Virus record (IMG/VR): IMGVR_UViG_3300046824_000119
Coordinates: 1-43,034 of that record
Source: a virus
Reading direction: 5' to 3' (one strand)
Length of the DNA: 43,034 nt
Below are positions 1-43,034 of this stretch, one piece after another; within the stretch, counting starts at the first letter, position 1, and each line of letters starts with the position of its first letter. A program made the translations under genes and the position numbers. Under the pieces are notes generated by a model. The model saw only the letters and a program-made list of their open reading frames with translations. It was not told where the DNA came from and ran no database searches.

Positions 1-131
1 GATATGGAGCCTGTCCGCGGACATGGGCGCTGGTCCGATCTGGTGGCCACGCCGGACACGGACGCCATGACCGGACAGACGGACGTGACCGACTGGGCGG
101 ACGGACATGACCGCGCCATTCGCGACCTCGG
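1..131. repeat. Left copy of terminal overlap
   Basis: Bases 6-131 are identical to 42909-43034, and bases 1-5 differ from 42904-42908 at two positions (GATAT against GACAC). The same reading frame runs through both copies. This is what the overlap of a circular or circularly permuted genome looks like; a true direct terminal repeat of about 130 bp is the alternative. Unique length would be 42,903 bp. Confidence 0.9.
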
Positions 132-420
132 CCAGGAGTTGGCCAGCGAGGCGGAGCGGTACGTGTCCGCGACATGGGACATGTCCAGCGCGGAGCGGAC
201 GGCGGTCACGCCGTCATTGCCGAGGCGGACACGGACACCGTCCGGTGCGTCCGCGCCGGACGAGTTCGTGGCCATGGCCGAGGCCTGGGACGGACAGGAG
301 CCGAAGCGCGCGGACATGGTCAAGCAGGCCGCGACGCAGTTCGGAGTGTCTCGCCGAACGGTCAGCCGCTGGCTGAACGCGGTCACAGGGGCGCCGATGT
401 CCGAACCGTCGGAGGAATGA
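1..420 (+). CDS. C-terminal part of DUF2637-type membrane/HTH protein (continues from right end)
   Basis: This frame is open from the first base and is the continuation of the gene starting at 42289: position 6 equals 42909 and the offset, 42903, is a multiple of three. Joined, the protein is about 344 aa. This part carries a long polar linker rich in Asp, Thr and Arg and a C-terminal helix-turn-helix-like segment near residues 95-125 of the fragment (VKQAATQFGVSRRTVSRWLN). The four membrane segments lie in the right-end part. It is followed after 2 bases by the 423-563 gene, whose SD (GGAGGA) lies in its last codons. An internal ATG at base 4 is an artefact of the terminal mismatch (ACG in the other copy), not a start. 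Confidence 0.8.
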   Translation, partial: DMEPVRGHGRWSDLVATPDTDAMTGQTDVTDWADGHDRAIRDLGQELASEAERYVSATWDMSSAERTAVTPSLPRRTRTPSGASAPDEFVAMAEAWDGQEPKRADMVKQAATQFGVSRRTVSRWLNAVTGAPMSEPSEE

Positions 421-422
421 TC

Positions 423-563
423 ATGGAAAGGGAAAGGCAGAAGTGCCCCGGCTGTGGGCACAACCGTGACCAGCACTCGATCGCCGGATGCCTGCACAAC
501 GGCAAGTGCGAATACGGCTGCATGAAGACTTACATGGACCTCAGTCCGCGCAAGCCGCGCTGA
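423..563 (+). CDS. Small Cys-rich protein, putative zinc finger (46 aa)
   Basis: A 46-residue protein with a CPGCGH motif near residues 8-13, followed by further Cys and His residues (HSIAGC, CEYGC), a spacing suited to binding one zinc ion. The start is set by a strong SD, GGAGGA, 6 bases before the ATG. It is the last gene of the plus-strand operon that begins at 41804 and crosses the genome join, and a perfect hairpin terminator follows 7 bases after its stop. No specific function can be assigned; such tiny zinc proteins are common in actinophages. Confidence 0.7.
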   Translation: MERERQKCPGCGHNRDQHSIAGCLHNGKCEYGCMKTYMDLSPRKPR

Positions 564-570
564 ACGCGAC

Positions 571-598
571 AAGGCCCCGGGGGCGGACCCGGGGCCTT
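571..598. terminator. Bidirectional hairpin terminator
   Basis: A perfect 11-bp stem (AAGGCCCCGGG at 571-581 with CCCGGGGCCTT at 588-598) and a 6-nt loop lies between the convergent stops at 563 (+) and 625 (-). Confidence 0.85.
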
Positions 599-624
599 GT
601 CATTTCGACTTGCAGAGGCGACCC

Positions 625-2187
625 TCAGCTTACGCGCTGCGATACGAACAGGTCGAGATCCGCAGACGCATAGAGCTTCGTACCGCGCTCCCCCTCCGCC
701 ATCGGCTCGGGGAAGTCAGCGAGGCGTTCACGCCATTTTTGTACCTGCGTCAGGGTCAGTCCGGGGCGACCCTTTACGTACTCCGACAACGCCACACCGG
801 GTGTCGTCGGTGGCTCTGGCCTGCACATACGCGCGCTTTCACCACCGACACCGACACCCAGCATCATGGCCGGCACGTCCGGCACCGGGGCGCCCCCGGT
901 GGCCCACTCGATCAGTCGTTCTGGCTGTCCCTTGATGTCGCAGAAGGGCGCCTGGAACTCCCGCAGCGAGTCCCCCACCACCAGGTGCCAGCGGCCAGGC
1001 ATGCCGGCGTGCTTCGGGATCGGCCGGATGCCGGTCAGCATGCGCCACGCGTTCGCGGTCGCCTTGCCCATCACCCGGCCACCGAACGATTCCCGCCCCT
1101 CCGGCCCGCCGGTGGCTCGCGCCGTCACACTCTGGCCGGCCAGCAGGATGTGCACGCGCATCTCACGTCCCATGTTGGCGAGGTTGGCCAGCGCGGTCAG
1201 TGCAGGCGACTGGCCCTTGCCCTCGATCGACTTCCAGTAGCCGCGCAGCCGGTTGGTGGCGCCGTTCATCTCCTCGAGCAAGGCCACCAGCGGGACCAGC
1301 TTGCCCGGATCGCCACCGGACGCCACGAACCGCGCACGGCGTACCAGCTCCTCGTCCAGCCAGAGCAGGCCCTCGTGCAACTCCTCGCTCTCGGCGGCAT
1401 ACAGCACGCCAGGGATGCGGCGCAGCCACATGTGGCTGACGAACTTGGCGTCGAACACGATCACGCCGTAGCCGCGGCGCATGAACTGCCCCACCAGCCA
1501 GGCCAGGAGCTCGCTCTTGCCGGCCATCGACTGCGCGTTGATCAGCAGGTGCGGACTGTCCTGCGTCAGGTCGAAATCCACCACGTGTCCGCGGACACCC
1601 GCGCCCATGATCAGGCACGTGTCCGGACACGCATCGGTGGCCGCGGTCATGTCCGCCATGGCCACGGACCTTGGTGGCTTGACCGGCGTGGTGAAGGTGC
1701 CGTATGGCTTGCGTCCGGTCAGTGTCCACGTGGCCGTGAGGTTGTCCGCGGACAAGCGCTGTCCGAGGACACGCGCCACGGCGGTCATGTCCTCCTTCGT
1801 GGCCGGCCAGTCCATGGGGACATGGACGCGAATGTCCGCGCCTTCGCGGTCACGGAAATTCCGAGGGATGTCTACGTGGACAAGACCGCGTCCGCTCGGT
1901 GTCCGCGGACGGATGATGTTGTCCAGGACGGTGGCCACCGGTTCGTGGACATGGCGCCGGAATGTCCACGTCCGCAGGTAGCGGACGCTGCGGTGTCCGG
2001 ACATGACCACGGACATGGACACGTAGGCGATGACCGGCCACCAGCCGGCCCACGGCCACGTCGCGGACAGCAGCAGCAGGACGCCGGCGTTGCGACCGGC
2101 TATGGCACGGACACGGTGTTCCATGCCACGGTGTCCGGTCAGGAGCGTGCGCCATACCGCGTCGTATGCACGTGCACGTGGGTTCAC
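625..2187 (-). CDS. FtsK/SpoIIIE-type DNA translocase (plasmid TraB/TraSA-like)
   Basis: A 520-aa membrane-anchored ATPase. Two hydrophobic segments near residues 34-64 precede a P-loop domain. The Walker A-like motif AQSMAGKSEL (about 218-227) has Ala where most family members have Gly; the Walker B-like strand LVPLVALLEEMN (about 297-308) ends in Glu-Glu; HILLAGQSV further on matches the FtsK sensor region. The last 60 residues look like a small winged-helix domain. Family knowledge: such proteins pump double-stranded DNA, and in actinomycete plasmids and integrative elements a single FtsK-like protein (TraB/TraSA) moves DNA between hyphae. Size and topology fit that class better than a host FtsK. 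The GTG start follows a TAGTGT -10-like box by 7 bases with no SD, suggesting a leaderless message. The gene is packed with TGTCC/GGACA words. Confidence 0.8.
   Translation of the reverse strand: MNPRARAYDAVWRTLLTGHRGMEHRVRAIAGRNAGVLLLLSATWPWAGWWPVIAYVSMSVVMSGHRSVRYLRTWTFRRHVHEPVATVLDNIIRPRTPSGRGLVHVDIPRNFRDREGADIRVHVPMDWPATKEDMTAVARVLGQRLSADNLTATWTLTGRKPYGTFTTPVKPPRSVAMADMTAATDACPDTCLIMGAGVRGHVVDFDLTQDSPHLLINAQSMAGKSELLAWLVGQFMRRGYGVIVFDAKFVSHMWLRRIPGVLYAAESEELHEGLLWLDEELVRRARFVASGGDPGKLVPLVALLEEMNGATNRLRGYWKSIEGKGQSPALTALANLANMGREMRVHILLAGQSVTARATGGPEGRESFGGRVMGKATANAWRMLTGIRPIPKHAGMPGRWHLVVGDSLREFQAPFCDIKGQPERLIEWATGGAPVPDVPAMMLGVGVGGESARMCRPEPPTTPGVALSEYVKGRPGLTLTQVQKWRERLADFPEPMAEGERGTKLYASADLDLFVSQRVS
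1587..1910. repeat. Palindrome GTCCGCGGAC, three copies, within dense TGTCC/GGACA words
   Basis: Perfect 10-bp palindrome GTCCGCGGAC at 1587-1596, 1744-1753 and 1901-1910, inside the translocase gene. The same palindrome recurs at 42785-42794, 42897-42906 and 42916-42925 (= 13-22) in the DUF2637 gene. I noticed it nowhere else. Could be a recognition site or a compositional signature of imported DNA. Confidence 0.55.
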
Positions 2188-2204
2188 AGGATTGACACTA
2201 GCGC

Positions 2205-2228
2205 ACAGTTAACCGAACCGTTAACTGT
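2205..2228. promoter_or_regulatory. Divergent promoter region with inverted-repeat operator
   Basis: ACAGTTAAC and GTTAACTGT form a perfect 9-bp inverted repeat with a 6-nt spacer, midway between the divergent genes starting at 2187 (-) and 2283 (+). Each arm holds GTTAAC. For the plus strand, TTAACC is followed after 18 bases by TACGAT (2233-2238). For the minus strand, TTAACG is followed after 18 bases by TAGTGT. The repeat therefore covers both -35 boxes, the expected place for a repressor that shuts both transcription units. Confidence 0.65.
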
Positions 2229-2249
2229 CAGATACGATGCTTCCGAAAG

Positions 2250-2264
2250 CGTGCAAGTTGCACG
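2250..2264. promoter_or_regulatory. Second palindrome in leader of 2283 gene
   Basis: CGTGCAA-G-TTGCACG is a perfect 7-bp inverted repeat with a single central base. It starts about 5 bases after the expected plus-strand transcription start and lies 18 bases before the ATG at 2283. A second operator or a small leader hairpin. Confidence 0.5.
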
Positions 2265-2282
2265 AACTGGAGGAATGTTGAC

Positions 2283-2447
2283 ATGACCGGATGGCGTGAC
2301 ACTCGGCCGGCCAACTGGAAGAAGACGGTCCGGCGACTGCGCCGGAATGCGGAGGAGTTGATCACCTATGGGTTCAAGGTGGTCGAGCCGGAAGACTTGG
2401 AGATCCCGGCCCATCAACGGATTGCGGAACCGTTGGCAGACCTGTAA
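2283..2447 (+). CDS. Small basic protein, unknown (54 aa)
   Basis: Starts with ATG after a good SD (GGAGGA, 8-base spacing), the first gene downstream of the operator-bearing promoter. The 54-residue product is basic at the N-terminus (residues 12-21 hold KK and three Arg pairs or singles) and acidic towards the end, with no membrane segment. No family recognised. Position as first gene of a plasmid-like cluster, next to paired operators, makes a small DNA-binding regulator possible, but nothing in the sequence proves it. Confidence 0.65.
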   Translation: MTGWRDTRPANWKKTVRRLRRNAEELITYGFKVVEPEDLEIPAHQRIAEPLADL

Positions 2448-2527
2448 TACTGGACCCATAGACGGTCCGGCTGTGAGTGGCAGAGATCCCTGCGGCCGGA
2501 CCGTTCGCTCTCTCGGAGGAGGTGGAC

Positions 2528-3013
2528 GTGATCCTGTTCCCGCGCGCCCGGCGCCGCTCCCCTGGCATCTACTGGTACCGCACGCGCCGGCACGCCCGGC
2601 GCGGTACCGAATGGGGCTACGTCGGCAAGAGCAACCACCTCACCCTGCGCGCCGACTGCCACGAGGGCCGCTGCACACGCCATCCGCAATGTGCAGGTGG
2701 CAAATCGTGGTCCGATCTGATCGTGAAGCGCCGTAGCCTCGAGCTCCCTTGGTGGCTGGGCTGGCAATGGATCACGCTCTCGCTGGAAACCTGCATGATC
2801 CTGCTGCTGCGCCCGCGCTACAACATCCAGAAAAACCCGCGGCGTAGCAAGGTGCCGGCTCGCGTCCAGCTATTGCAGCGGGCGGCACGGGACCGGGCTG
2901 CGAGCGCAGGCGCGCCGGTCTACCTGCGCCCGTCATACGTGGATCTCGCGTTCCGCGCGGCCGGAGTCCTGATCATCCTTACCGGCCTGGCCGGTTGGTA
3001 CTTCACTCGATAA
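2528..3013 (+). CDS. GIY-YIG-like protein with C-terminal membrane helix
   Basis: 161 aa from the GTG at 2528, chosen because GGAGGAGG lies just upstream; an in-frame GTG at 2477 would add 17 residues without an SD. Near the N-terminus GIYWYR is followed about 20 residues later by WGYVGKSN, matching the two strands and the GKTN-type turn of GIY-YIG nucleases. A Glu in LSLETCMI and a later RPRYN match the family's catalytic Glu and P..N motif. About 20 hydrophobic residues near the C-terminus form a membrane anchor. Domain call is from motif reading only; a membrane-bound nuclease next to a DNA translocase would suit DNA processing at the envelope. Confidence 0.6.
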   Translation: MILFPRARRRSPGIYWYRTRRHARRGTEWGYVGKSNHLTLRADCHEGRCTRHPQCAGGKSWSDLIVKRRSLELPWWLGWQWITLSLETCMILLLRPRYNIQKNPRRSKVPARVQLLQRAARDRAASAGAPVYLRPSYVDLAFRAAGVLIILTGLAGWYFTR

Positions 3014-3028
3014 AAGAAGGAAGAGCGC

Positions 3029-3229
3029 ATGCCGACCATCCGTATCTGGCACGGCCCTCAGGTGATCCAGGTGGTCTCCGTGAGCACCTCGGGAAGCAGT
3101 ACGTCCGGCGCTGTCGGGGGTGCCGAGGACTCCACCAAGGTGGACATCGAACTCGATCCCTGGGCCGGCCTGATCGTGGACAATCACGATGGCGGCACGC
3201 CGGTCAGTTTCCGGGAGTCTGCGGAATGA
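3029..3229 (+). CDS. Small unknown protein (66 aa)
   Basis: ATG start with SD AAGGAAGAG about 3 bases upstream. The product has a beta-rich start (IRIWHGPQVIQVVSVSTSG), a Ser/Gly-rich middle and an acidic end, without Cys motifs or membrane helices. Its stop overlaps the start of the next gene (ATGA), so the two are translationally coupled. No family recognised. Confidence 0.65.
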   Translation: MPTIRIWHGPQVIQVVSVSTSGSSTSGAVGGAEDSTKVDIELDPWAGLIVDNHDGGTPVSFRESAE

Positions 3230-3660
3230 ACGAACTGGACCGCATCCTGATCAGGAAACAATCTGCCGTGGTAATCACCAGCGCTCGCCCGGTGATCATG
3301 ATGAATGCGCCATACCATGCCAAGGCGGATCTCGTCGCCGCGGTGACACGCCAGGCACGCCGCGGCGAGATCCGTCCACTCGTCGCGCGTCCTCGCTGGA
3401 ACCCCGACCACGACCGGTGGGAGCACCCGGTGGAGCGCCTGCGCCCCCCGGCGCCGGCCTGGATCCGGCCGATCACCATCGCGGGTATTGCGTTGATGAC
3501 GCTCTCGGCACTCGCGGGCCTGCTCTGGTGGGTGCTGGCCACACTGACCGCGGGCGCCCTCGCGCTGTTCCTGCTCGCCGCGCTGTGCGTCCTGGCCGGA
3601 ATTGTCCGCGCCGGCAAGCGGCAGACGGTGAACATCACCAACAACGTGACCATGCGCTGA
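3226..3660 (+). CDS. Two-helix membrane protein, plasmid-spread-like
   Basis: 144 aa. About 85 polar residues with many Arg precede two adjacent hydrophobic helices (roughly residues 87-107 and 112-130) and a short C-terminus. Start ATG overlaps the previous stop. Small two-helix proteins beside a TraB/FtsK protein are typical of the spd (plasmid spread) genes of actinomycete conjugative elements; this is a context argument, not a sequence match. It is the last gene before a strong bidirectional terminator. Confidence 0.6.
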   Translation: MNELDRILIRKQSAVVITSARPVIMMNAPYHAKADLVAAVTRQARRGEIRPLVARPRWNPDHDRWEHPVERLRPPAPAWIRPITIAGIALMTLSALAGLLWWVLATLTAGALALFLLAALCVLAGIVRAGKRQTVNITNNVTMR

Positions 3661-3704
3661 TGGCAGCGCGGACCACGGAGATAGCCGACTCGGAAGGCCA
3701 GCAG

Positions 3705-3740
3705 AAAGGCCCGGACCTCCTGTAGGAGGTCCGGGCCTTT
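3705..3740. terminator. Strong bidirectional terminator
   Basis: Perfect 16-bp stem (3705-3720 with 3725-3740) and TGTA loop, with A-run and T-run flanks inside the stem ends. It separates the plus-strand plasmid-like block (stop 3660) from the minus-strand lysis/virion block (stop 3766). Confidence 0.9.
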
Positions 3741-3765
3741 CGTTGCGATGTCGAGTGACGCCAGC

Positions 3766-3999
3766 TCAGCGATTCTTCTTCAGGTACGCGGTGATCAGGC
3801 CGGACACGGTGCCGATGCCGACGGTCACTAGCGGCACCCACCACCCGGACCAGTTCGTGGTGTCCAGACCGGCCAGGCCGGCGCCGAGGATCTGTAGCAG
3901 CGTGGTGACGATGAAGCCGACGGCAAGGCCGGCCTTGCTCTCCTTGGCCAGGCTCTTGCTGCCGTCGCCGGACGGCCCGCTGTTCAGGGGGTTGCCCAT
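3766..3999 (-). CDS. Holin-like membrane protein (77 aa)
   Basis: ATG at 3999 has a near-perfect SD (GAGGAG, 6-base spacing); the frame is open further upstream but that part overlaps the neighbour. After about 22 polar residues come two hydrophobic segments (about 24-42 and 50-70) separated by a short polar turn, ending in a basic tail KKNR. Size, two-helix topology and charged C-terminus are those of small phage holins, and it sits two genes from the endolysin. Holin identity is inferred. Confidence 0.65.
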   Translation of the reverse strand: MGNPLNSGPSGDGSKSLAKESKAGLAVGFIVTTLLQILGAGLAGLDTTNWSGWWVPLVTVGIGTVSGLITAYLKKNR

Positions 4000-4583: not shown

Positions 4584-4630
4584 TCATAGTCCACCCATCG
4601 ACGTGCCGAGACATGATTGCCGGACGGAAA

Positions 4631-5692
4631 CTAACCGTTCGGATCCTCGGCCGGAGCGAGACGGATGGACATCTCGTCCACCACCTGCTGCGCAAGGTCC
4701 GGCGGAAGCGCGGCAACCACCGCGTCCGCGATCGTCTCCGCGGCGCCCTCGGCGCCGGCCAGCCCGGACAGGACACCCTGAACGATGGCAGCCTCATCGG
4801 TGAAGTCCTTGCCGACCAGCGTGGCCAGGTCTGCCTGAACCTGCAACAGCCGGGTGCCGATCTCGCCGATGACCTTGTACTGGTTGGTCGTCTCGCCCGC
4901 CCTGAACGGGTTCGGCACACCCTGGACGCCGGCCCGGTTGCCGATCACTGACTCCGGATAGCCGCTCTTCTGCTCCGTGCTCTTGTGGAACTCCTTCAGC
5001 GCGGCCAGGCAATCGTCGTACGCGGTCACAAGATCCTCCTCCGCCCATCCGGGCGCTAGCAGTTCGGTCAGTTCGGTCAGTGTCCCGCGGAACGCGTTCG
5101 CGTCACAGGTGGTCTGATTGGCGATGGTGGCGCTCGAGCTGTATTGCAGGATCGACGGACTCCTCCCGCCGTACGCTGCCCACTTGCTCGAGGAGTCCCC
5201 GGGGTAGAGCGTCTTGTAGTGGCCTGCGCCGTCCACGTACTTCGACGACCACAACGGGTACTTGAACTTGGAGATGTCGCCATACACCCAGTCCGGCAGG
5301 TAGCCGATCGGTCGCAGCTTCGGCAACTTGGCCACCAGCCGGTCACAGAAGGCATTCACCTCGGACACGCTGGGCACCGTGGACGAGTCGCCGTTCCACT
5401 TCTCGCAGTCGGCTTGCAGGATGAACGGGCCATCCCGCCAGCCCGGGCACTGCGAGTCCAGGCGCGCGATGAACTTGTCCGCGCGGCCGGTCGGATCGCC
5501 TGGGTACAACACCCAGTAGGCGCCCAGCAGGACCGTGGACCGGTAACCCTTGGCGTAGCCCCACCATGAACCGAGTTCCGCATCATCTTTGTCCCCACCG
5601 GCCTTGTGCGTCTGGAAGACGATGCCGTCGGAGAACATGGGACGCGTGTCCGCGCCGTCATAGTGCGAGACGTCCGAACCAAAAACGGTCAT
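4631..5692 (-). CDS. Endolysin, GH25-like lysozyme
   Basis: 353 aa, ATG at 5692 overlapping the previous stop (ATGA). The N-terminal 210 residues look like a glycoside hydrolase family 25 muramidase: FGSDVSHYDG at the start matches the family's D-S-x-(W/Y) opening, and acidic residues follow at expected strand ends (ILQADCEKW, YLPDWVYGD). Such enzymes cut the N-acetylmuramic acid-N-acetylglucosamine bond of peptidoglycan. The C-terminal 120 residues are helical and rich in Ala, Leu and Glu, with no recognised wall-binding repeat, an odd tail for a lysozyme. No signal peptide, so export needs a holin; holin-like genes follow directly. Confidence 0.75.
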   Translation of the reverse strand: MTVFGSDVSHYDGADTRPMFSDGIVFQTHKAGGDKDDAELGSWWGYAKGYRSTVLLGAYWVLYPGDPTGRADKFIARLDSQCPGWRDGPFILQADCEKWNGDSSTVPSVSEVNAFCDRLVAKLPKLRPIGYLPDWVYGDISKFKYPLWSSKYVDGAGHYKTLYPGDSSSKWAAYGGRSPSILQYSSSATIANQTTCDANAFRGTLTELTELLAPGWAEEDLVTAYDDCLAALKEFHKSTEQKSGYPESVIGNRAGVQGVPNPFRAGETTNQYKVIGEIGTRLLQVQADLATLVGKDFTDEAAIVQGVLSGLAGAEGAAETIADAVVAALPPDLAQQVVDEMSIRLAPAEDPNG

Positions 5693-6228
5693 CCGATCTG
5701 CCTCACTGTGAAGGTGGAACCCGCGTCGATGTCGCAAGCGTTGCCGCTCGAAGCGTTCTGCGCCCACTGCAACGACAGGTTGCCGGCCACGGTGACCACC
5801 ACATTGCAGGACCATTCCCGAAACGATGTGAACGCCGTGGTGCCCGAAGCTCCGTACACCGAGTCGGAACCGACGCCGGCCGCCCGGGTATTCATGGTGT
5901 CTGCAATGTCAGTGGCCGCAGTGTTTGTCCGGCCTGGGCCAGTGACATGCCGAACCGGACTGTTCCACGTGCCGGAGAATGCCCATTGCGTCTTGATGGC
6001 GTTGGCCGTAGTCACCGAGTGGAAGAAGCCCAGCAGGTTGACTTCCCAGGTGCCGACCGCCAGCGCGATGCCCTGCAGGTCCGTGTCGTCGGCCAGGGTG
6101 GTGGTGCTGGTGCGCGCCTCGTTGGACGGCTTGACGTAGTACTTGGGCACCATCGACTGCAGCAGGTCCGCGGTGACCAGATCGCCCACGGCCAGGCTGG
6201 GGTAGAAGGTGGCTGCGACGGCGGTCAC
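5689..6228 (-). CDS. Minor tail/receptor-tip protein (179 aa)
   Basis: GTG start overlaps the stop of the large tail protein (GTGA) and its own stop overlaps the endolysin start, so it is coupled on both sides. Sequence is rich in Thr, Ala and Gly with alternating hydrophobic residues, i.e. a beta-sandwich such as those at tail-fibre tips. No catalytic motif. Proteins of this size at the 3' end of the tail operon are common in Streptomyces-type siphophages. Function inferred from position. Confidence 0.6.
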   Translation of the reverse strand: MTAVAATFYPSLAVGDLVTADLLQSMVPKYYVKPSNEARTSTTTLADDTDLQGIALAVGTWEVNLLGFFHSVTTANAIKTQWAFSGTWNSPVRHVTGPGRTNTAATDIADTMNTRAAGVGSDSVYGASGTTAFTSFREWSCNVVVTVAGNLSLQWAQNASSGNACDIDAGSTFTVRQIG

Positions 6229-9146
6229 TGATTGTCCCTTCCGATGTAGAACGCATCCCGCACCTGAACGACGGTCAGCGCGTCATGCGCCAGCACCTCG
6301 CCGTTCACCGAACGGGTCACCGAGGAAAACGTCTGCGGACTGGTGGCGCCGGCGATGCTGCTCACGGACATCTCCTCCCCACCAATCATGATCTCTATCG
6401 GGAAGGTCGGTGCGCTCGAGCCTGTACGCCACAGCCGGCCGGTGCTGGTGGTCACGGTGAAGCTGGTGGCGCCGCTGGTCAGCGAAGAGGTCAGGAACGA
6501 GCTCGAGGCGGCCAGGCGAGCCCGGGCGAGGTCCGAGCCGGACAGGTCGTTCAGGCTGCGGTACGGGCCGTAGGGCTGGGTGTTCCAGGTGATGCCGTGC
6601 CCGCGGTTCTGCAGATTCTCCGCGTAGCCGATCATCAACAGTTCCACGCCGTCCGGCGGTAGCTGCGCCGGCAGGTTGATCAGACGCAGTGCATCACCCA
6701 GATCGGCATCCAGGATGTCCGCATCCAGCAGGGTGCCGGCCACGATGACCGACCGCTCCCGGCGCACGGTCACGCTCGGATAGCGCAACTCGTCCCACGT
6801 GCCCAGGAAGACCTCTTCCTGGGCGAGCGCGGGAAGACGATCGTCATCGGAGGCGATCCGGGTGACCGGGCCGGGATCGAAGGTGCCGATGCCGTTCTGA
6901 TCGGTGGACGGCTCGTTGACGTTCAGGGTGCCGCTGGTCCGCACGTACCGTGCCGACCCACCGGTGCCGTTCTGCACGGTCACGTCATTGCGGGCCAGGT
7001 ACAGATCGTCACGAGGCACCAGCGGCGAGGACAGGTGATTCTGCGCGTAGTCGAGCTCCACGCACTCCCGGTTGATCAGGGAGTTGTGCAGCCGGAGCGT
7101 GAGCCCGAACTTGTCGCGCGGCGCGTAGATGAGGCCGCGGTCCAGGTTGGCGCACTCGGTGATCAGCGCCACGAACGACTGCGACGTCTGCGGCCCGCAC
7201 GGCTCCCCCACGCCCGGCTCGAAATCGCCGCTGTAGGTGCGCCCGACCAGCCAGTACGGGACGCCCTGCTCCCGGCACAACCGGGCGAAACGGTCCTCGG
7301 CGCGTTCGTCCACGTAGGCGTTGGTGCTGCCGATGAACGCGGAGCCTTCCCAGTCCACGTCTTCACGCATGGTGGCCACGTGCGCGATCCACCAGCCGGA
7401 CTTGCCGGTGAACGCGGGCGAGGTCCAGTTCTTGCTGCGTCCGACGGTGCCGGCGTAGTTGCCACTCACGCCGAACAGGTTGGCCCCGCCGATCGGGTAC
7501 CAGGCCCACTCGTAATCGACGTTGCCGCCGTTCTGGGTGAGCATCACCCGCATGGCCAGCGGCTGGTTGGGCTCGCCCCCGGTGCCGAACGCGACGGTGG
7601 TGGACAGCAAGCTCGTTCCGGAACTGTTGGTGATGTCCAGCTTGTACGTGGCAGTGCTGACCGTGATGGCCACCCGGTAGGTGGTGCCGGCCACCAGGTA
7701 GAAGTTGATCAGGTTCACGTCGGCCCCCGGTACCGACGGAGCCCGGAAGTACAACAGCAGGGTGACCACGCCGGTGGATGAGGTGGTCGAGATCGCCAGT
7801 CCACCGCCCGACGCCTTGCCGGCGTCGGAGGAGAACGTCAGTACGCCGGTGGTGCCGGGGAAGTCCTCGTCCGTGCCGAACGCGGCGTTGCTCATGGTGC
7901 CGTACGTGCCGGTCGCGGGGCTGGGCGTGGTGGCCTGGCTGCCGTTCTCCATCGGCCAGTAGCCGTCCAGCGTGCCGCTGGTGCCGGTCGACGTGTTCGA
8001 GAAGCGGATGAGGTTGCGGTAGACCGCCGATTGCAGCGATTTCGCGCCCTGCTGCAATCGGCTCAGGATGTCGTACGGGGTCATCTGGCCGAAGATGTCG
8101 GTGCCGGAAACGTCCCACTCTTGCGGCAGATCACCCAGTTCGCCCCAAAACCGATAGTTCTGTTTGGTGATCTCAGCGCTGCCGCGCAATACCCAGGTGT
8201 TGGCAGTTGCCAACCCGTCCGACCACGAGGTGGTACCGGCCGTCTGCGCGGTGGCGTTCATATCGGCCACCAGGGTGCCGCCGATGCCGGAGTACACCTG
8301 GGCCCGGTAGATGCGGCCCACGAACGGATTGGTGATGCTGGTGCCGCCGATGGAGAACGAATTGCGCCCGTATGTTCCCGAAGTGGCGCCGCTGAGCTGG
8401 ATGGCGCCGACGAACAGGGCAGCTCCGCCGGAGTAGATGGAGGTGGTGGGCGTGCTGCCCGCCGTCGCGCCCAGTTGCGTCCAGCTACCGCTGATGGTGT
8501 CGGCGGTGTAGAAGGTCAACGTCCAGCCACCACCCCCGTTGTTGACGTCCAGGGTCACCCGGAACGCCTGCCGGCGCAACGCGCTCACGGTGGCGGTGGA
8601 GATCACGTCATGAGCGCCGGCTGAGGTTCCGTCGGTGGACCACCGGAAGCGCAGATAGCCCATGCGGTCCAGCCAGAACAGCCAGGAGCGGTCCGGGCTC
8701 GTGGTGTTGTACTTGCTGGCCAGCACCATGCCGTGCCCGCCGCGCAGATTGTCGGGACGGCAGTCGACGCGGATGTCGATGTCGCCGGTGATGTCGAGGA
8801 CGGCCTTGTCCGCCGTGCCGGCGCGGGCTCCGTCGTAGTTGCCGTCGCTGTCGGAGTAGTCGTTCATCCACAGCCAGGGCGTGGTCTCGGTGAGCGAGCA
8901 CCGGTACTGCGTGTTGCGGCCGATGACCTTGTAGTTGACGGACGACGGCGAGCGGTTGGAGAAGAAGTAGTCGCGGTTGTTCGCTGTGAACGTGGCGCTT
9001 CCGGGGGCCAGTGCGCTCTGCTGGCCGGAAAAGCCGCGGGTGATGTTGACGTCGGCTGCGTCGCGGGTGTAGGCGGTGATGTCGGTCCAGGTGCCGCCGA
9101 TCAACATCTCTTGCTTGATCGGCAGGACGCTTTGCGGGAACGCCAT
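6225..9146 (-). CDS. Large minor tail protein with two LamG/concanavalin-like domains
   Basis: 973 aa directly after the tape measure. The first 90 residues (ending in NNRDYFFSN) resemble the start of distal-tail/baseplate hub proteins. Two LamG-type beta-sandwich regions follow, about residues 100-310 and 395-620; the second opens with GYWPMENGS, the usual first strand. Then comes a hub-like region with VTVRRERSVI, and a last 100 residues that form a small beta domain (IMIGGEEMSVSSIAG, SVNGEVLAHD). It probably combines baseplate hub and host-surface carbohydrate binding. No separate distal tail protein was found, so that role may be fused here. Confidence 0.75.
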   Translation of the reverse strand: MAFPQSVLPIKQEMLIGGTWTDITAYTRDAADVNITRGFSGQQSALAPGSATFTANNRDYFFSNRSPSSVNYKVIGRNTQYRCSLTETTPWLWMNDYSDSDGNYDGARAGTADKAVLDITGDIDIRVDCRPDNLRGGHGMVLASKYNTTSPDRSWLFWLDRMGYLRFRWSTDGTSAGAHDVISTATVSALRRQAFRVTLDVNNGGGGWTLTFYTADTISGSWTQLGATAGSTPTTSIYSGGAALFVGAIQLSGATSGTYGRNSFSIGGTSITNPFVGRIYRAQVYSGIGGTLVADMNATAQTAGTTSWSDGLATANTWVLRGSAEITKQNYRFWGELGDLPQEWDVSGTDIFGQMTPYDILSRLQQGAKSLQSAVYRNLIRFSNTSTGTSGTLDGYWPMENGSQATTPSPATGTYGTMSNAAFGTDEDFPGTTGVLTFSSDAGKASGGGLAISTTSSTGVVTLLLYFRAPSVPGADVNLINFYLVAGTTYRVAITVSTATYKLDITNSSGTSLLSTTVAFGTGGEPNQPLAMRVMLTQNGGNVDYEWAWYPIGGANLFGVSGNYAGTVGRSKNWTSPAFTGKSGWWIAHVATMREDVDWEGSAFIGSTNAYVDERAEDRFARLCREQGVPYWLVGRTYSGDFEPGVGEPCGPQTSQSFVALITECANLDRGLIYAPRDKFGLTLRLHNSLINRECVELDYAQNHLSSPLVPRDDLYLARNDVTVQNGTGGSARYVRTSGTLNVNEPSTDQNGIGTFDPGPVTRIASDDDRLPALAQEEVFLGTWDELRYPSVTVRRERSVIVAGTLLDADILDADLGDALRLINLPAQLPPDGVELLMIGYAENLQNRGHGITWNTQPYGPYRSLNDLSGSDLARARLAASSSFLTSSLTSGATSFTVTTSTGRLWRTGSSAPTFPIEIMIGGEEMSVSSIAGATSPQTFSSVTRSVNGEVLAHDALTVVQVRDAFYIGRDNQ

Positions 9147-12704: not shown

Positions 12705-13439
12705 CTAGAACACCACCGTCGTTGCATTTCGCACGGCCAGCACAGCGAACGTGGCCGCGGAGAACGTGCCGGACGAGACGGCGCGCAGATAGCGGCGCAC
12801 GGTACCTGCGACCGCGATGCGCTGGGCGCTGACCGTGCCTGCCAGGACGGCAGAGAACGCGGCGCCGGACAGGTCCAGCCATGCGGAGTTGTCCGCGGAG
12901 TCCTGGATCTTCACGGTGACGCTGGTGCCGGCCACCGTGTTGCAGGCCAGATAGAACTGCGCGCCCAGCGCAGAGGACGCGGCGCCGTCCAGGCTCGCGC
13001 CGTTGGTAGCCGTGGTGTCCGTGCGCATCCACGCGGTGAGCTGATCGCCCCACTCGAGGCCGTAGCCGTCGGACTGCACGGTGGTCGCGAACGACAGCGC
13101 TCCGTCCTGTCCGCGGGTTCCGTTGTAATCCACCTGCAGCGACAGGCAGGCCGCACCGGGGGACCCGATGGTCGCGCCGCGTCCGTAGAGGGCGATCACG
13201 TCCGTGCGGGGCAGTGCGGACAGGACGGGGTGGGAGCGGCCGGCCGCCTTGTTGAACCAAGATGCAAATTGCATTCCGCCGTTGCGCAGTCCACCCAGGC
13301 GTTCGTAGCCGCTCTGCGTGATGTCGGTGACGTCGAGCGGCGCCGGCCCGCCGTTGATCTGCTGGATGCTGCCAATGTCGCCGGACAGGTCGTAGCCGCC
13401 GACGGAGAAGTGATCACCGAGGCCTGTCTGTTTTGCCAT
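12705..13439 (-). CDS. Major tail tube protein
   Basis: 244 aa from the ATG at 13439 (AGGTGG SD). The first 110 residues (starting MAKQTGLGDHFSVGGYDL) are a tail tube-like beta domain with DVTDITQSGYERLGGL, which aligns with a motif in the smaller protein at 11314-11682. The last 130 residues form a second beta domain (VKIQDSADNSAW, AQRIAVAGTVRRYLR) of the discoidin/Ig-like type often appended to tube proteins and displayed on the tail surface. It follows the tail terminator gene, as expected. Confidence 0.75.
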   Translation of the reverse strand: MAKQTGLGDHFSVGGYDLSGDIGSIQQINGGPAPLDVTDITQSGYERLGGLRNGGMQFASWFNKAAGRSHPVLSALPRTDVIALYGRGATIGSPGAACLSLQVDYNGTRGQDGALSFATTVQSDGYGLEWGDQLTAWMRTDTTATNGASLDGAASSALGAQFYLACNTVAGTSVTVKIQDSADNSAWLDLSGAAFSAVLAGTVSAQRIAVAGTVRRYLRAVSSGTFSAATFAVLAVRNATTVVF

Positions 13440-13440
13440 G

Positions 13441-13917
13441 CTATGCCACCTGTGTCCACGCGTCGGCAATGATCATCGGTACGGTAATCGTCATGATCCG
13501 GTACAGGCCGGAGCCCTGCCCGCCGATCTGCACATAGCCCGCCTCCGCGCGCAGACTCTCCCCGCCGATGCCCAGCAGATCGATGGCCTCCACCAGGCCG
13601 GCCAGGGTGAACTCCCCGGTATAGGAGCGCATGAGATCGTCGGTGGCCGCCAGCATGTTCGGGTCGATCTGGTCTGCCTCGTCCGGCGTCGAGCGCAGCA
13701 TGTTGTCGTAGATCCGTACCTGCATGACCAGGTACGCGCTGGTCGCGGCCAGGCCGGACGACTGCGCGTGCGGTAACAGGCCTTGCGCCCAGACAGAGCA
13801 GGTCAGCCCATTCGCCGGCGGACTCTTCGGCTCACTGGCATTGACCTTGTCAAACCTGCCCGTCAACTGGGCATGCGACACCAGCGCATCCACGATGGCC
13901 TGCATGTCGATGCTCAC
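13441..13917 (-). CDS. Tail terminator-like protein
   Basis: 158 aa; GTG at 13917 overlaps the preceding stop (GTGA). Starts with a helix (MQAIVDALVSHAQLTGRFDKV), then short strands and two helices (DPNMLAATDDLMRSYTGEF, LAGLVEAIDLLG), ending in a beta strand pair. This order and size fit the tail terminator/tail completion proteins (HK97 gp10/lambda gpU class) that cap the tail tube for joining. Position between the HK97-gp10-like gene and the tube gene supports this. Confidence 0.65.
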   Translation of the reverse strand: MSIDMQAIVDALVSHAQLTGRFDKVNASEPKSPPANGLTCSVWAQGLLPHAQSSGLAATSAYLVMQVRIYDNMLRSTPDEADQIDPNMLAATDDLMRSYTGEFTLAGLVEAIDLLGIGGESLRAEAGYVQIGGQGSGLYRIMTITVPMIIADAWTQVA

Positions 13918-24430: not shown

Positions 24431-25357
24431 CTAGCAGGAGCCGATGTTGCCGGGCGTGGTCGCGACACCGCCGACGAACTTGTAGCCGGGACCACCGTAA
24501 TAGATGGTCCGGTTGGCGATGGACGCGAACACCACGTTGTACGCGTTCGGGTCGGTGATCGCCCCGTAGGAGAAATAGCTGGCCGGACCTGACGAGTTGA
24601 CCAGCGACAAGCTGCCGACGTACGGATGACCGGTAGTCGGAGGAGAGCCCTGAAGGAAGCCGTCACTGGTGTCGCCGCACGGCTTGTCGTTCGACGTCCC
24701 CGGATTGTTGTAGCCGTTGTAGGCGTACTCGCTGAATGCCAGCACATACTGCGCCTTTGACCAACCGGCCGTGAACGCCGTTGGCTGCCAGCAACCGACA
24801 TGAGACCCGCCGTAGTAAACGTGCCAGCCGTTCGCGGACAGGCCACAGTCGAGATCGGAGTGGTACACCTGAATCAGCTTGGCCGTGCCGAGGTCAGCAG
24901 TCAGAGCTGAGCCCAGGTTGACGGAAGTACCCGTGTCATCCACCCACGGACCACCTGTTCCGTTGTAGCACCCGGTGACTGGCGAACCGTTGTGCCAAGC
25001 GCACGAGTAGAGGTGAGCATTGCTGTCACCCCACACGTCATACGCGACCGCGATCCCGGCCTCGACGCAGTCCCCCGCAGTGACCGTGGTGTCCCGACAG
25101 GCGCCCTCCGCGATCAGCGAGTGGTCACGAACGCCACCGTAAACCGTAGTCGGCACATACGGCGCAACGACGTAGAAGCTGCCGGAGATGCCATCGGAGT
25201 TGTCAGGAGCGGTGAGCGTCTGGCTCACCGTGGCGTAGTAGTAGCCGGCGCCGTTGAACGGGGTGGCCTGCGCGGGACTGGCAAAGGCCAGCGATGCGAC
25301 GACAGCCAGCAGGGGCAGGAGTGCGAGCCCGATCCGGCTCATGAGTTTGTCTTCCAT
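24431..25357 (-). CDS. Secreted protein with signal peptide, neprosin-like region
   Basis: 308 aa from the ATG at 25357, fixed by TATACT six bases upstream. Residues 1-31 are a classic Sec signal peptide: basic start, hydrophobic core LALLPLLAVVASLAF, cleavage after SPAQA. The mature part is rich in Gly, Tyr and Cys (at least eight Cys) and contains GWHVYYGGSHVGCWQP with nearby Trp and Tyr residues, resembling the C-terminal region of neprosin-like secreted proteins; this resemblance is weak and from memory. A phage-coded exported protein with its own promoter and terminator, placed between the terminase genes, looks like a cargo gene acting outside the host cell. Confidence 0.65.
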   Translation of the reverse strand: MEDKLMSRIGLALLPLLAVVASLAFASPAQATPFNGAGYYYATVSQTLTAPDNSDGISGSFYVVAPYVPTTVYGGVRDHSLIAEGACRDTTVTAGDCVEAGIAVAYDVWGDSNAHLYSCAWHNGSPVTGCYNGTGGPWVDDTGTSVNLGSALTADLGTAKLIQVYHSDLDCGLSANGWHVYYGGSHVGCWQPTAFTAGWSKAQYVLAFSEYAYNGYNNPGTSNDKPCGDTSDGFLQGSPPTTGHPYVGSLSLVNSSGPASYFSYGAITDPNAYNVVFASIANRTIYYGGPGYKFVGGVATTPGNIGSC

Positions 25358-25363
25358 GGACCA

Positions 25364-25369
25364 AGTATA
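25364..25369 (-). promoter_or_regulatory. -10 box of secreted-protein gene
   Basis: TATACT on the minus strand, six bases before ATG 25357; it lies just past the stop of the upstream gene (25380). No SD. Confidence 0.6.
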
Positions 25370-25379
25370 TCGGGTTGAT

Positions 25380-25547
25380 CTATCCGCCGAAAGCACCCTG
25401 GACCGCGGCAATGATCCCCAACGTGAGCAGGAAAACGGCCAGCAGCCCGAGGCCCCGCCCGACGCTCGCATACCGGCCGTACTTCTCGGCGCGTCGCCGG
25501 CCGTACTCATCGGCCGCGGCGTACCAGGCGCGCCGATGGAAGCTCAT
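25380..25547 (-). CDS. Small membrane protein (55 aa)
   Basis: ATG at 25547 overlaps the previous stop (ATGA). About 28 basic, Tyr-rich residues (YGRRRAEKYGRY) are followed by one strong membrane helix (GLGLLAVFLLTLGIIAAV) and a short tail. Single-pass with cytoplasmic basic head by the positive-inside rule. Function unknown. Confidence 0.6.
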   Translation of the reverse strand: MSFHRRAWYAAADEYGRRRAEKYGRYASVGRGLGLLAVFLLTLGIIAAVQGAFGG

Positions 25548-42200: not shown

Positions 42201-42292
42201 CCAGGATCAACTGGTGGGCGGTCGCGCAGCTTGCCGTGCTGACCGCAGTCGTCACGGCCTTGCTCGTATGGGCGGAGATGAGTGTGCTGTGA
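42197..42292 (+). CDS. Tiny membrane peptide (31 aa)
   Basis: ATG at 42197 (SD AGGCAGGA region) overlapping the previous stop. One membrane helix (VAQLAVLTAVVTALLVW). Its stop overlaps the GTG of the DUF2637 gene, so it may mainly couple translation. Confidence 0.55.
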   Translation: MTRINWWAVAQLAVLTAVVTALLVWAEMSVL

Positions 42293-43034
42293 CCAAGCTG
42301 GGCAGACTCTGGACCGGCGCCGTCGCCTACGTCTCCCTGTTGGTGGGCGCCGGCTTGTCCGTGGCCGGCAACCTCGCGGACACCTATCGCACGCGTGGCG
42401 CGGACATCGACAACCTGGACAAGGTGATGGCCGCGGGCTGGCCCATTCTGGTGCTGCTGGCCATCGAGATGTTCGTCAGCCCGCGCTGGTCACCCGCGCG
42501 GATGTTCCAGGCGTGGCGGTGGATCGGCTGCCTCGCCGTCGGCGGCATGGCCATGGTGGTCTCCTGGACGCACCTGCATGACCTGATGGCCAGCCGCGGG
42601 CAGCTCTACGTCGTGTCCGTACTCGGCCCGCTGGCCATCGACGGCATGGCCATCATGGCCACCGGCCTGATCCTGTCCACGCGTGTCCGCCGCGGACAGG
42701 TCCGTATGGTCACGCTCGCTCCGGACGCGGGCACGGTCATGACCAAGGTGGCCGGCCCAATCGCGGACATCGCTCCCCCCTGGATGTCCGCGGACATGTC
42801 CGGCCACACCGCGGACACGCGTGGACGATGGGAGATGACCGCGGACACGGTACGGCCATGGCCGCGTCCGGACACACTCGACGGCCGGGCGCCCATGTCC
42901 GCGGACACGGAGCCTGTCCGCGGACATGGGCGCTGGTCCGATCTGGTGGCCACGCCGGACACGGACGCCATGACCGGACAGACGGACGTGACCGACTGGG
43001 CGGACGGACATGACCGCGCCATTCGCGACCTCGG
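42289..43034 (+). CDS. DUF2637-type membrane protein, N-terminal part (continues at base 1)
   Basis: GTG at 42289 overlaps the previous stop. Four membrane helices are visible: about residues 10-28 (AVAYVSLLVGAGLSVAGNLA), 47-63 (GWPILVLLAIEMFVS), 76-92 (WIGCLAVGGMAMVVSW) and 107-127 (VVSVLGPLAIDGMAIMATGL). This arrangement is that of DUF2637 proteins, found on actinomycete plasmids and integrative elements beside TraB/FtsK-type genes. A long Asp/Thr-rich linker full of TGTCC/GGACA words follows, and the frame continues in the left end to a C-terminal helix-turn-helix. Complete length about 344 aa. Confidence 0.8.
   Translation, partial: MTKLGRLWTGAVAYVSLLVGAGLSVAGNLADTYRTRGADIDNLDKVMAAGWPILVLLAIEMFVSPRWSPARMFQAWRWIGCLAVGGMAMVVSWTHLHDLMASRGQLYVVSVLGPLAIDGMAIMATGLILSTRVRRGQVRMVTLAPDAGTVMTKVAGPIADIAPPWMSADMSGHTADTRGRWEMTADTVRPWPRPDTLDGRAPMSADTEPVRGHGRWSDLVATPDTDAMTGQTDVTDWADGHDRAIRDL
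42904..43034. repeat. Right copy of terminal overlap
   Basis: Matches 1-131 with two differences (42906 and 42908). Lies inside the DUF2637 gene. Confidence 0.9.

Follow-up and report, generated by a model that had tools for sequence, protein, structure and literature searches.

A block of genes lying across the join of a closed tailed-phage genome encodes a putative membrane DNA translocase, a DUF2637 membrane protein with a helix-turn-helix (HTH) end, a GIY-YIG-like protein and a 144-aa membrane protein, and the first two of these genes carry within their coding sequences a dense array of 57 short GGACA/TGTCC sites. The genome is IMG/VR record IMGVR_UViG_3300046824_000119, analyzed over its whole length of 43,034 bp (the window). 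The module is real and conserved, the array is real at the DNA level, and with moderate confidence we read them as serving DNA transfer or spread; in its specific form, that the block is of plasmid type and transfers or spreads the DNA of the phage itself by way of a clt-like array embedded in its genes, we give this reading a probability of roughly 45%. Eight other IMG/VR phage records (G001-G008, the window being G000) were compared, together with further loci designated by L-numbers.

The window ends in a 126-bp exact repeat of sequence near its start that closes the genome to a circle of 42,903 bp, and the DUF2637 gene reads through this join as a single open frame of 344 aa, bearing out an earlier note on this DNA that had placed one block across the join. 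Terminal overlaps are also present in G002 and G006 (127 bp, exact), G008 (123 bp), and G001 (a tail match). Pfam analysis shows matches to DUF2637 (PF10935; 27.8 bits, cut-off 22.8) and, at the C-terminus, to HTH_23 (25.6 bits, cut-off 24.6), so that the DUF2637 assignment, whose failure the note had named as counter-evidence, holds. DUF2637 is matched in nine of 20 records searched (seven above cut-off), including all five of G000-G004 (four above cut-off). The DUF2637 domain of the window has no tblastn match among the phages or plasmids searched, and a recent transfer from a sequenced plasmid is therefore not indicated. We note that the segment at 42289-42908 also matches the DUF2637-like PHROGs family phrog_733 (E 6.9e-8), which is labelled 'excisionase', a label that may mislead.

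The translocase gene is convergent with the DUF2637 gene, and its product carries Walker A and Walker B motifs. It scores below the cut-off with Pfam FtsK_SpoIIIE (16.9 bits, cut-off 24) and was not reported by a six-frame family search of the window, but a profile built from nine sequences (A1) and compared with 177,635 distinct PDB sequences matches TcpA of pCW3 (E 8.1e-9), FtsK (1.8e-5) and TrwB (6.3e-4). The hydrophobic character of its two N-terminal segments is weak for the window protein (mean Kyte-Doolittle 1.25) and clear for the relatives in G004 and L052 (about 1.6-2.0). The C-terminal domain is conserved and is modelled as helix-helix-strand-helix at a pLDDT of about 80; this predicted HTH-like domain may read DNA, as the C-terminal winged HTH of TraB-type translocases reads 8-bp repeats. 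By tblastn the translocase matches 68 of 72,556 plasmid records, 56 of them from Streptomyces, as against one of 50,697 phage records, and IMG/VR holds 16 loci with relatives, of which all 12 new ones match profile A1. In a 36-row tree of the motor domain, G000-G004 group with a phage fusion protein in L052 (97/85), and this group falls within a family made up of plasmid proteins of the pRL2-11 type and phage proteins, whose backbone has mixed support and which includes some long branches. The nearest relatives of the window translocase are those of other phages, which may or may not be purely lytic, the grouping that the earlier note had named as its other counter-evidence. Streptomyces plasmids often have a second, shorter, motor-only homologue directly after the long pRL2-11 gene (L045, L046, L047, L050), and a similar short form is present in phages such as Dagobah. 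The homologue in plasmid pPR2 (L002, 8514-10327) is split over two overlapping frames, either by a frameshift or by a programmed break.

GIY-YIG nucleases have a residue pattern of GIY / YVG, R, H, E and N, and in the alignment of the window protein's family the G-Y, GYVG, R, H, E and N columns are invariant in all six relatives. The gene has tblastn matches in G001-G005 and none in the 50,697 phage records. L052 is a contig of a more distant phage and includes a tape-measure-like gene; in it, an 824-aa frame (4620-7094) encodes the motor with its HTH-like end fused to a GIY-YIG-like domain, and is followed by a DUF2637 protein (7218-8132; 22.0 bits, slightly below cut-off). The profile of the window GIY-YIG family matches the C-terminal domain of this fusion (E 1.5e-6), over which Pfam GIY-YIG (PF01541, cut-off 22.6) also aligns at a sub-threshold score (13.5 bits, E 0.089), as it does for the G005 relative (12.4 bits). 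Because the two are fused in L052, the motor and the nuclease-like protein probably act together. The description of a GIY-YIG-like membrane protein therefore rests on the residue pattern, homology to the fusion and weak matches of relatives, although the window protein itself has no Pfam match. The 'two-helix' membrane protein of the same note is a membrane protein of 144 aa, but with only one strong hydrophobic helix above the threshold of 1.5.

The array stands out at the level of DNA. The 8-mer CGCGGACA is the most over-represented in the window (38 copies versus 3.2 expected), and also in G001 and G003. The 57 GGACA/TGTCC sites fall within 2.9 kb. The DUF2637 gene holds 30 of them and the translocase gene 27; all but one of the latter lie within its first ~630 bp, and the array ends sharply mid-gene. 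Elsewhere in the genome there are 3.2 sites per kb and at most six in 500 bp. Sites of either orientation have the consensus CGCGGACA[C/T]G (by direction, 19/11 sites in the DUF2637 gene and 12/15 in the translocase gene), and TGTCCGCGGACA palindromes occur at 6, 4, 1 and 6 places in G000-G003, respectively. When codons were permuted within each gene 300 times with protein and codon usage kept, none of the shuffles reached the observed number in either gene (translocase, 27 versus 8.1, z 8.0; DUF2637, 30 versus 14.9, z 6.1). The excess is alike in G001, G002 and the DUF2637 gene of G003, and is present in the G004 translocase gene (z 5.4), while the part of the G004 DUF2637 gene examined has no notable excess (z 1.6); four of the five phages exceed the shuffles strongly. 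In eight control genes of the window, z lies between 0 and 2.1 for GGACA but reaches 3.8 for CGGACA. When all 5-mers are ranked, GGACA comes first in the translocase genes of G000-G004 (for G003, in the 5' piece) and no lower than third in the DUF2637 genes. Codon alignments show site turnover with density kept, in that G000 and G002 (22 and 20 DUF2637 sites) have seven in common, as is expected from selection on the array and not on single sites.

Plasmid and distant-phage translocase and DUF2637 genes tested have no comparable GGACA array, and we rejected the array as a general trait of these families. A different motif, GCGGCTA, is clustered in the L053 translocase gene (2657-3833), which holds seven of the 11 copies in that 13.9-kb locus (z 10.4 versus synonymous shuffles); this is perhaps another embedded array, although the cluster is suggestive only. 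Outside the module, G001 has four more CGCGGACA sites, including one full palindrome, at 13289-13523 (L021). G006 (L041-L043) contains a palindrome, TGTCAACTAGTTGACA, with 22 copies of GTCAACTA versus 0.6 expected; these are often paired (near 24642, 26223, 27725, 29987, 34310 and 35646) and may be repressor operators. We rejected these as the same type of array, being scattered in pairs in a phage that lacks the module.

The module is found beyond the window, in a family of soil phages. G001-G003 are close relatives (terminase 82-90%), each with the DUF2637, translocase, GIY-YIG and 144-aa protein genes, and the translocase and DUF2637 genes are convergent neighbours in all five of G000-G004. 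Few virion genes of G004 match those of the window, all of them weakly (24-31%), and it keeps DUF2637 (67%), the translocase (49%), GIY-YIG (41%) and the 144-aa protein (33%), together with replication genes. G005 is a partial contig beginning at the GIY-YIG gene; among the eight records compared, G006 is without the module, and G007 and G008 have a distant DUF2637 only, with no match to profile A1 or A4.

The rest of the window is that of a tailed phage. Its virion gene set is complete by PHROG matches (large terminase, portal, head protease, major head protein, head-tail adaptor, major tail protein, tape measure and endolysin), as the earlier note had it, and there are matches to a primase, helicases, an exonuclease and endonuclease VII of phage type. 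That note saw no integrase, and searches for tyrosine and serine recombinases likewise found none in the window or in G001-G008 (0/9). No relaxase turned up among the scanned phage genes, though no search aimed at relaxase families was made; a tRNA scan gave none, and GC skew indicates no clear origin close to the GGACA array. The G+C content is 66%, the tail gene searched has its structural relatives mainly in phages of Streptomyces (32 of 40 records), and a terminase scan of genome contigs recovered one relative among 43 stretches, in Streptomyces sp. H27-C3 (52% identity), so that a Streptomyces-like actinomycete host is likely. This 21-kb H27-C3 stretch contains virion genes and no translocase or GIY-family match, and a scan of genome contigs with the translocase alignment gave 53 pattern-matching stretches, none encoding a relative. 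Both scans used two short peptide motifs only and are therefore no proof that integrated copies are absent.

We propose that a module of actinomycete plasmid type has been retained by a tailed-phage lineage in which no integrase was found, and that the phage may persist extrachromosomally. The translocase would act as an FtsK/TcpA-like motor anchored in the membrane. The DUF2637-HTH protein, also anchored there, would bind DNA and take the place of the plasmid SpdB-type proteins, and the GIY-YIG protein would be a membrane-tethered nuclease working with the motor. The 57-site CGCGGACA array would be a clt-like cis site on which one or both HTH domains load on circular or concatemeric phage DNA; the motor would move this DNA through a septum or into a neighbouring hypha, and the nuclease would cut or nick it so that passage is possible. 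A more ambitious version is doubtful, namely that the phage spreads by two routes, as virions and by translocase-driven, array-directed passage of double-stranded DNA between hyphal compartments or mating hyphae, with the tethered nuclease as a processing step; we know of no such step in TraB systems. Phage-plasmids are known, and what would be new, if the proposal is true, is a tailed phage with a conserved single-motor transfer module and its own embedded cis array. Viral and conjugative spread would then be united in one element, and phage crossing of the mycelium without lysis would become testable. From the array follows a clean prediction of DNA binding that can be falsified, and the fusion points to a nuclease as partner of motors of this type.

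Several observations weigh against a plasmid-type transfer module. The naming of the translocase as FtsK/TraB-like is correct for the FtsK superfamily but not for the TraB clade: the Tra proteins of pIJ101, pTSC1 and p7 lie with FtsK across a 100/100 branch, and we therefore reject classical TraB membership and consider the protein TraB-like only at the superfamily level, as a member of a pRL2-11-type family. A standard-filter hmmsearch with profile A1 listed no pIJ101 frame, and with filters off, in a set of 36 proteins, pIJ101 Tra matches A1 (E 8e-10) over part of the motor only. Both AlphaFold models made are poor (mean pLDDT 51 and 47), and we give little weight to a Foldseek search of the translocase model that ranked FtsK and TcpA first, with TM-scores only near 0.2. 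The window GIY-YIG protein lacks a Pfam match, and pIJ101 SpdB has no DUF2637 or other Pfam match, so the Spd analogy rests on position. The array is not uniform: the 3' piece of the G003 translocase gene has no notable excess (z 2.2), the G004 array is not significant genome-wide (best window 11 sites, p 1.8e-4 per window), and of the 16 other long genes in the window two also have raised GGACA (z 3.8 and 4.3), so that there may be a mild genome-wide preference for it. Family searches found no AAA_31/ParA in the window, and no plasmid Rep was identified there, ParB and Rep families not having been searched for. Finally, headful-packaged, circularly permuted phage DNA is likewise expected to assemble as a circle, and circular assembly by itself does not distinguish a plasmid circle from it.

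The closest rival to transfer, which overlaps with spread in a mycelial host, is that the module serves segregation. In this reading the membrane-anchored DUF2637-HTH protein would bind the array as an origin or centromere-like site, and the translocase would pump the phage-plasmid into the right compartment at septation, keeping an extrachromosomal prophage stable within one mycelium. We consider this unlikely. With neither integrase nor ParA found, another stability system would be needed, and sites in both directions would suit such a role, as would the precedent of pIJ101, where SpdA2/sps, with its sites located in the gene itself, is reported to influence stability but not transfer (PMC4170104). 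Half of the array sits in the translocase gene, however, pointing to the motor, and the two-motif scans of genome contigs found no lysogen or plasmid prophage with the module. It is quite improbable that this is an ordinary lytic phage using accessory FtsK-like and membrane genes for entry or packaging, the array arising merely from local codon habits; phages with FtsK-like proteins are known (Dagobah, the 12 further IMG/VR loci and, weakly, PHROG 1358), as is a DUF2637-like PHROGs family (phrog_733), but codon habits predict neither the shuffle result nor the sharp end of the array mid-gene. Marginally less probable still is exclusion or attack on host DNA, in which a membrane-tethered motor and GIY-YIG nuclease cut incoming or host DNA and the array marks self DNA or regulates the genes of the module: the fusion in L052 and the position of the nuclease and 144-aa protein genes next to lysis genes are in keeping with it, but none of the systems tested offers a precedent for a protective tag of motif-dense self DNA, and the partners of DUF2637 are plasmid genes (pPR2, the NBC_00691 plasmid and p7).

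The coordinates of the module and its surroundings are collected in the table. The two palindromes in the divergent region to the left of the rightward operon both look like operators, and the GTGCAA-N-TTGCAC form of the second has no copies in G004-G008. Neither these palindromes, nor the GGACA array, nor the presence of the module in other phages had been mentioned in the earlier note. Elsewhere in the window, a Neprosin-domain protein (24431-25510, minus strand; PF03080, 29.2 bits, cut-off 22) is encoded adjoining the large terminase gene and has relatives in G001-G003.

Table. Features of the module and its flanks in the window (43,034 bp).
Feature	Position	Strand	Basis and remarks
DUF2637 + HTH membrane protein, first part	42289..42908	+	in-frame across terminal repeat; Pfam DUF2637; three hydrophobic segments
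DUF2637 + HTH gene, second part: motif-rich linker and C-terminal helix-turn-helix	6..420	+	HTH_23 above cut-off
Terminal repeat closing the circle	42909..43034		copy of 6-131
FtsK/TcpA-like membrane DNA translocase (putative), 520 aa: N-terminal hydrophobic hairpin, Walker A/B motor, C-terminal HTH-like domain	625..2187	-	profile, tree, motifs
Array arm 1 (DUF2637 gene, mostly linker codons)	42614..42908, continuing 6..402		site positions; shuffle z 6.1
Array arm 2 (5' part of translocase gene)	1557..2136		26/27 gene sites; shuffle z 8.0
Operator-like palindrome GTTAAC-N6-GTTAAC between divergent genes	2208..2225		in 3/4 of G000-G003; one pair per genome
Second palindrome, GTGCAAGTTGCAC	2251..2263		alignment; GTGCAA-N-TTGCAC once in each of G000-G003 (4/4)
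Small conserved protein, 54 aa, first of rightward operon	2283..2447	+	62-84% identity in G001-G003
GIY-YIG-like nuclease (predicted), C-terminal membrane helix, 161 aa from GTG 2528; listed ORF start 2477	2528..3013	+	motif pattern, relatives
66-aa protein	3029..3229	+	no counterpart recovered in relatives compared
Membrane protein, 144 aa, conserved with module	3226..3660	+	tblastn in relatives, hydrophobicity

Comparable gene sets are known from actinomycete plasmids, as the earlier note had stated for DUF2637 and TraB-like genes. Planobispora rosea pPR2 and the Streptomyces NBC_00691 plasmid have DUF2637, a short gene and a translocase of the same family in a row, and differ from the phage in that the stretches read lack annotated virion genes, the GGACA array is absent and no GIY-YIG partner was seen; plasmid p7 has TraB, a short hypothetical gene, and then DUF2637 with an HTH end. 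The pRL2-11 / DUF87 translocases of Streptomyces plasmids share 30-37% identity over 63-86% of the query among the 25 matches listed, and have the motor and C-terminal HTH-like end in common with the phage translocase. Unlike the phage, these plasmids are mostly large and linear, several are typed MOBF with relaxase-like neighbours, and the genes tested have no comparable GGACA array. An S. goshikiensis plasmid encodes a translocase of the pRL2-11-type family, with an upstream gene that has no Pfam match. The Streptomyces plasmid-phages pFP4 and pZL12 carry phage genes on extrachromosomal elements. A review of phage-plasmids mentions, in the part available, acquired mobilisation genes but no such module (PMC11652158), and no description of one was found in the literature searched, most subscription journals lying outside that coverage.

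The TraB/TraA-clt and Spd systems of pIJ101, pWTY27 and pSVH1 are similar in organization: a motor in the membrane whose C-terminus binds DNA, repeats in cis that overlap the tra gene, and a membrane Spd partner (PMC3583192, PMC4170104). In pWTY27 TraA is described as binding repeats in clt, there being four TGACACC repeats and 16 bp of clt inside the end of traA (PMC3583192). SpdB2 of pSVH1 is reported to bind DNA at the membrane and to interact with TraB, and SpdA2 to bind a 12-bp palindrome within its own gene (PMC4170104). A clt or TRS locus has repeated short sites in or beside a tra gene, which the translocase binds and which transfer requires; in their layout the 57 GGACA sites are of this kind. 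The phage differs from these systems in that its motor belongs to another clade and its array is far larger and lies inside two genes. In pIJ101, CGTCACGTGACG occurs twice, which we take to be sps; this palindrome, of 12 bp, also recurs within a gene that encodes a DNA-binding protein, although in two to three copies versus dozens in the phage array. The phage module matches the Streptomyces-plasmid plan in kind, with a membrane motor with a predicted DNA-binding end, a predicted membrane DNA binder and cis sites in both genes, to which the predicted nuclease would be an addition.

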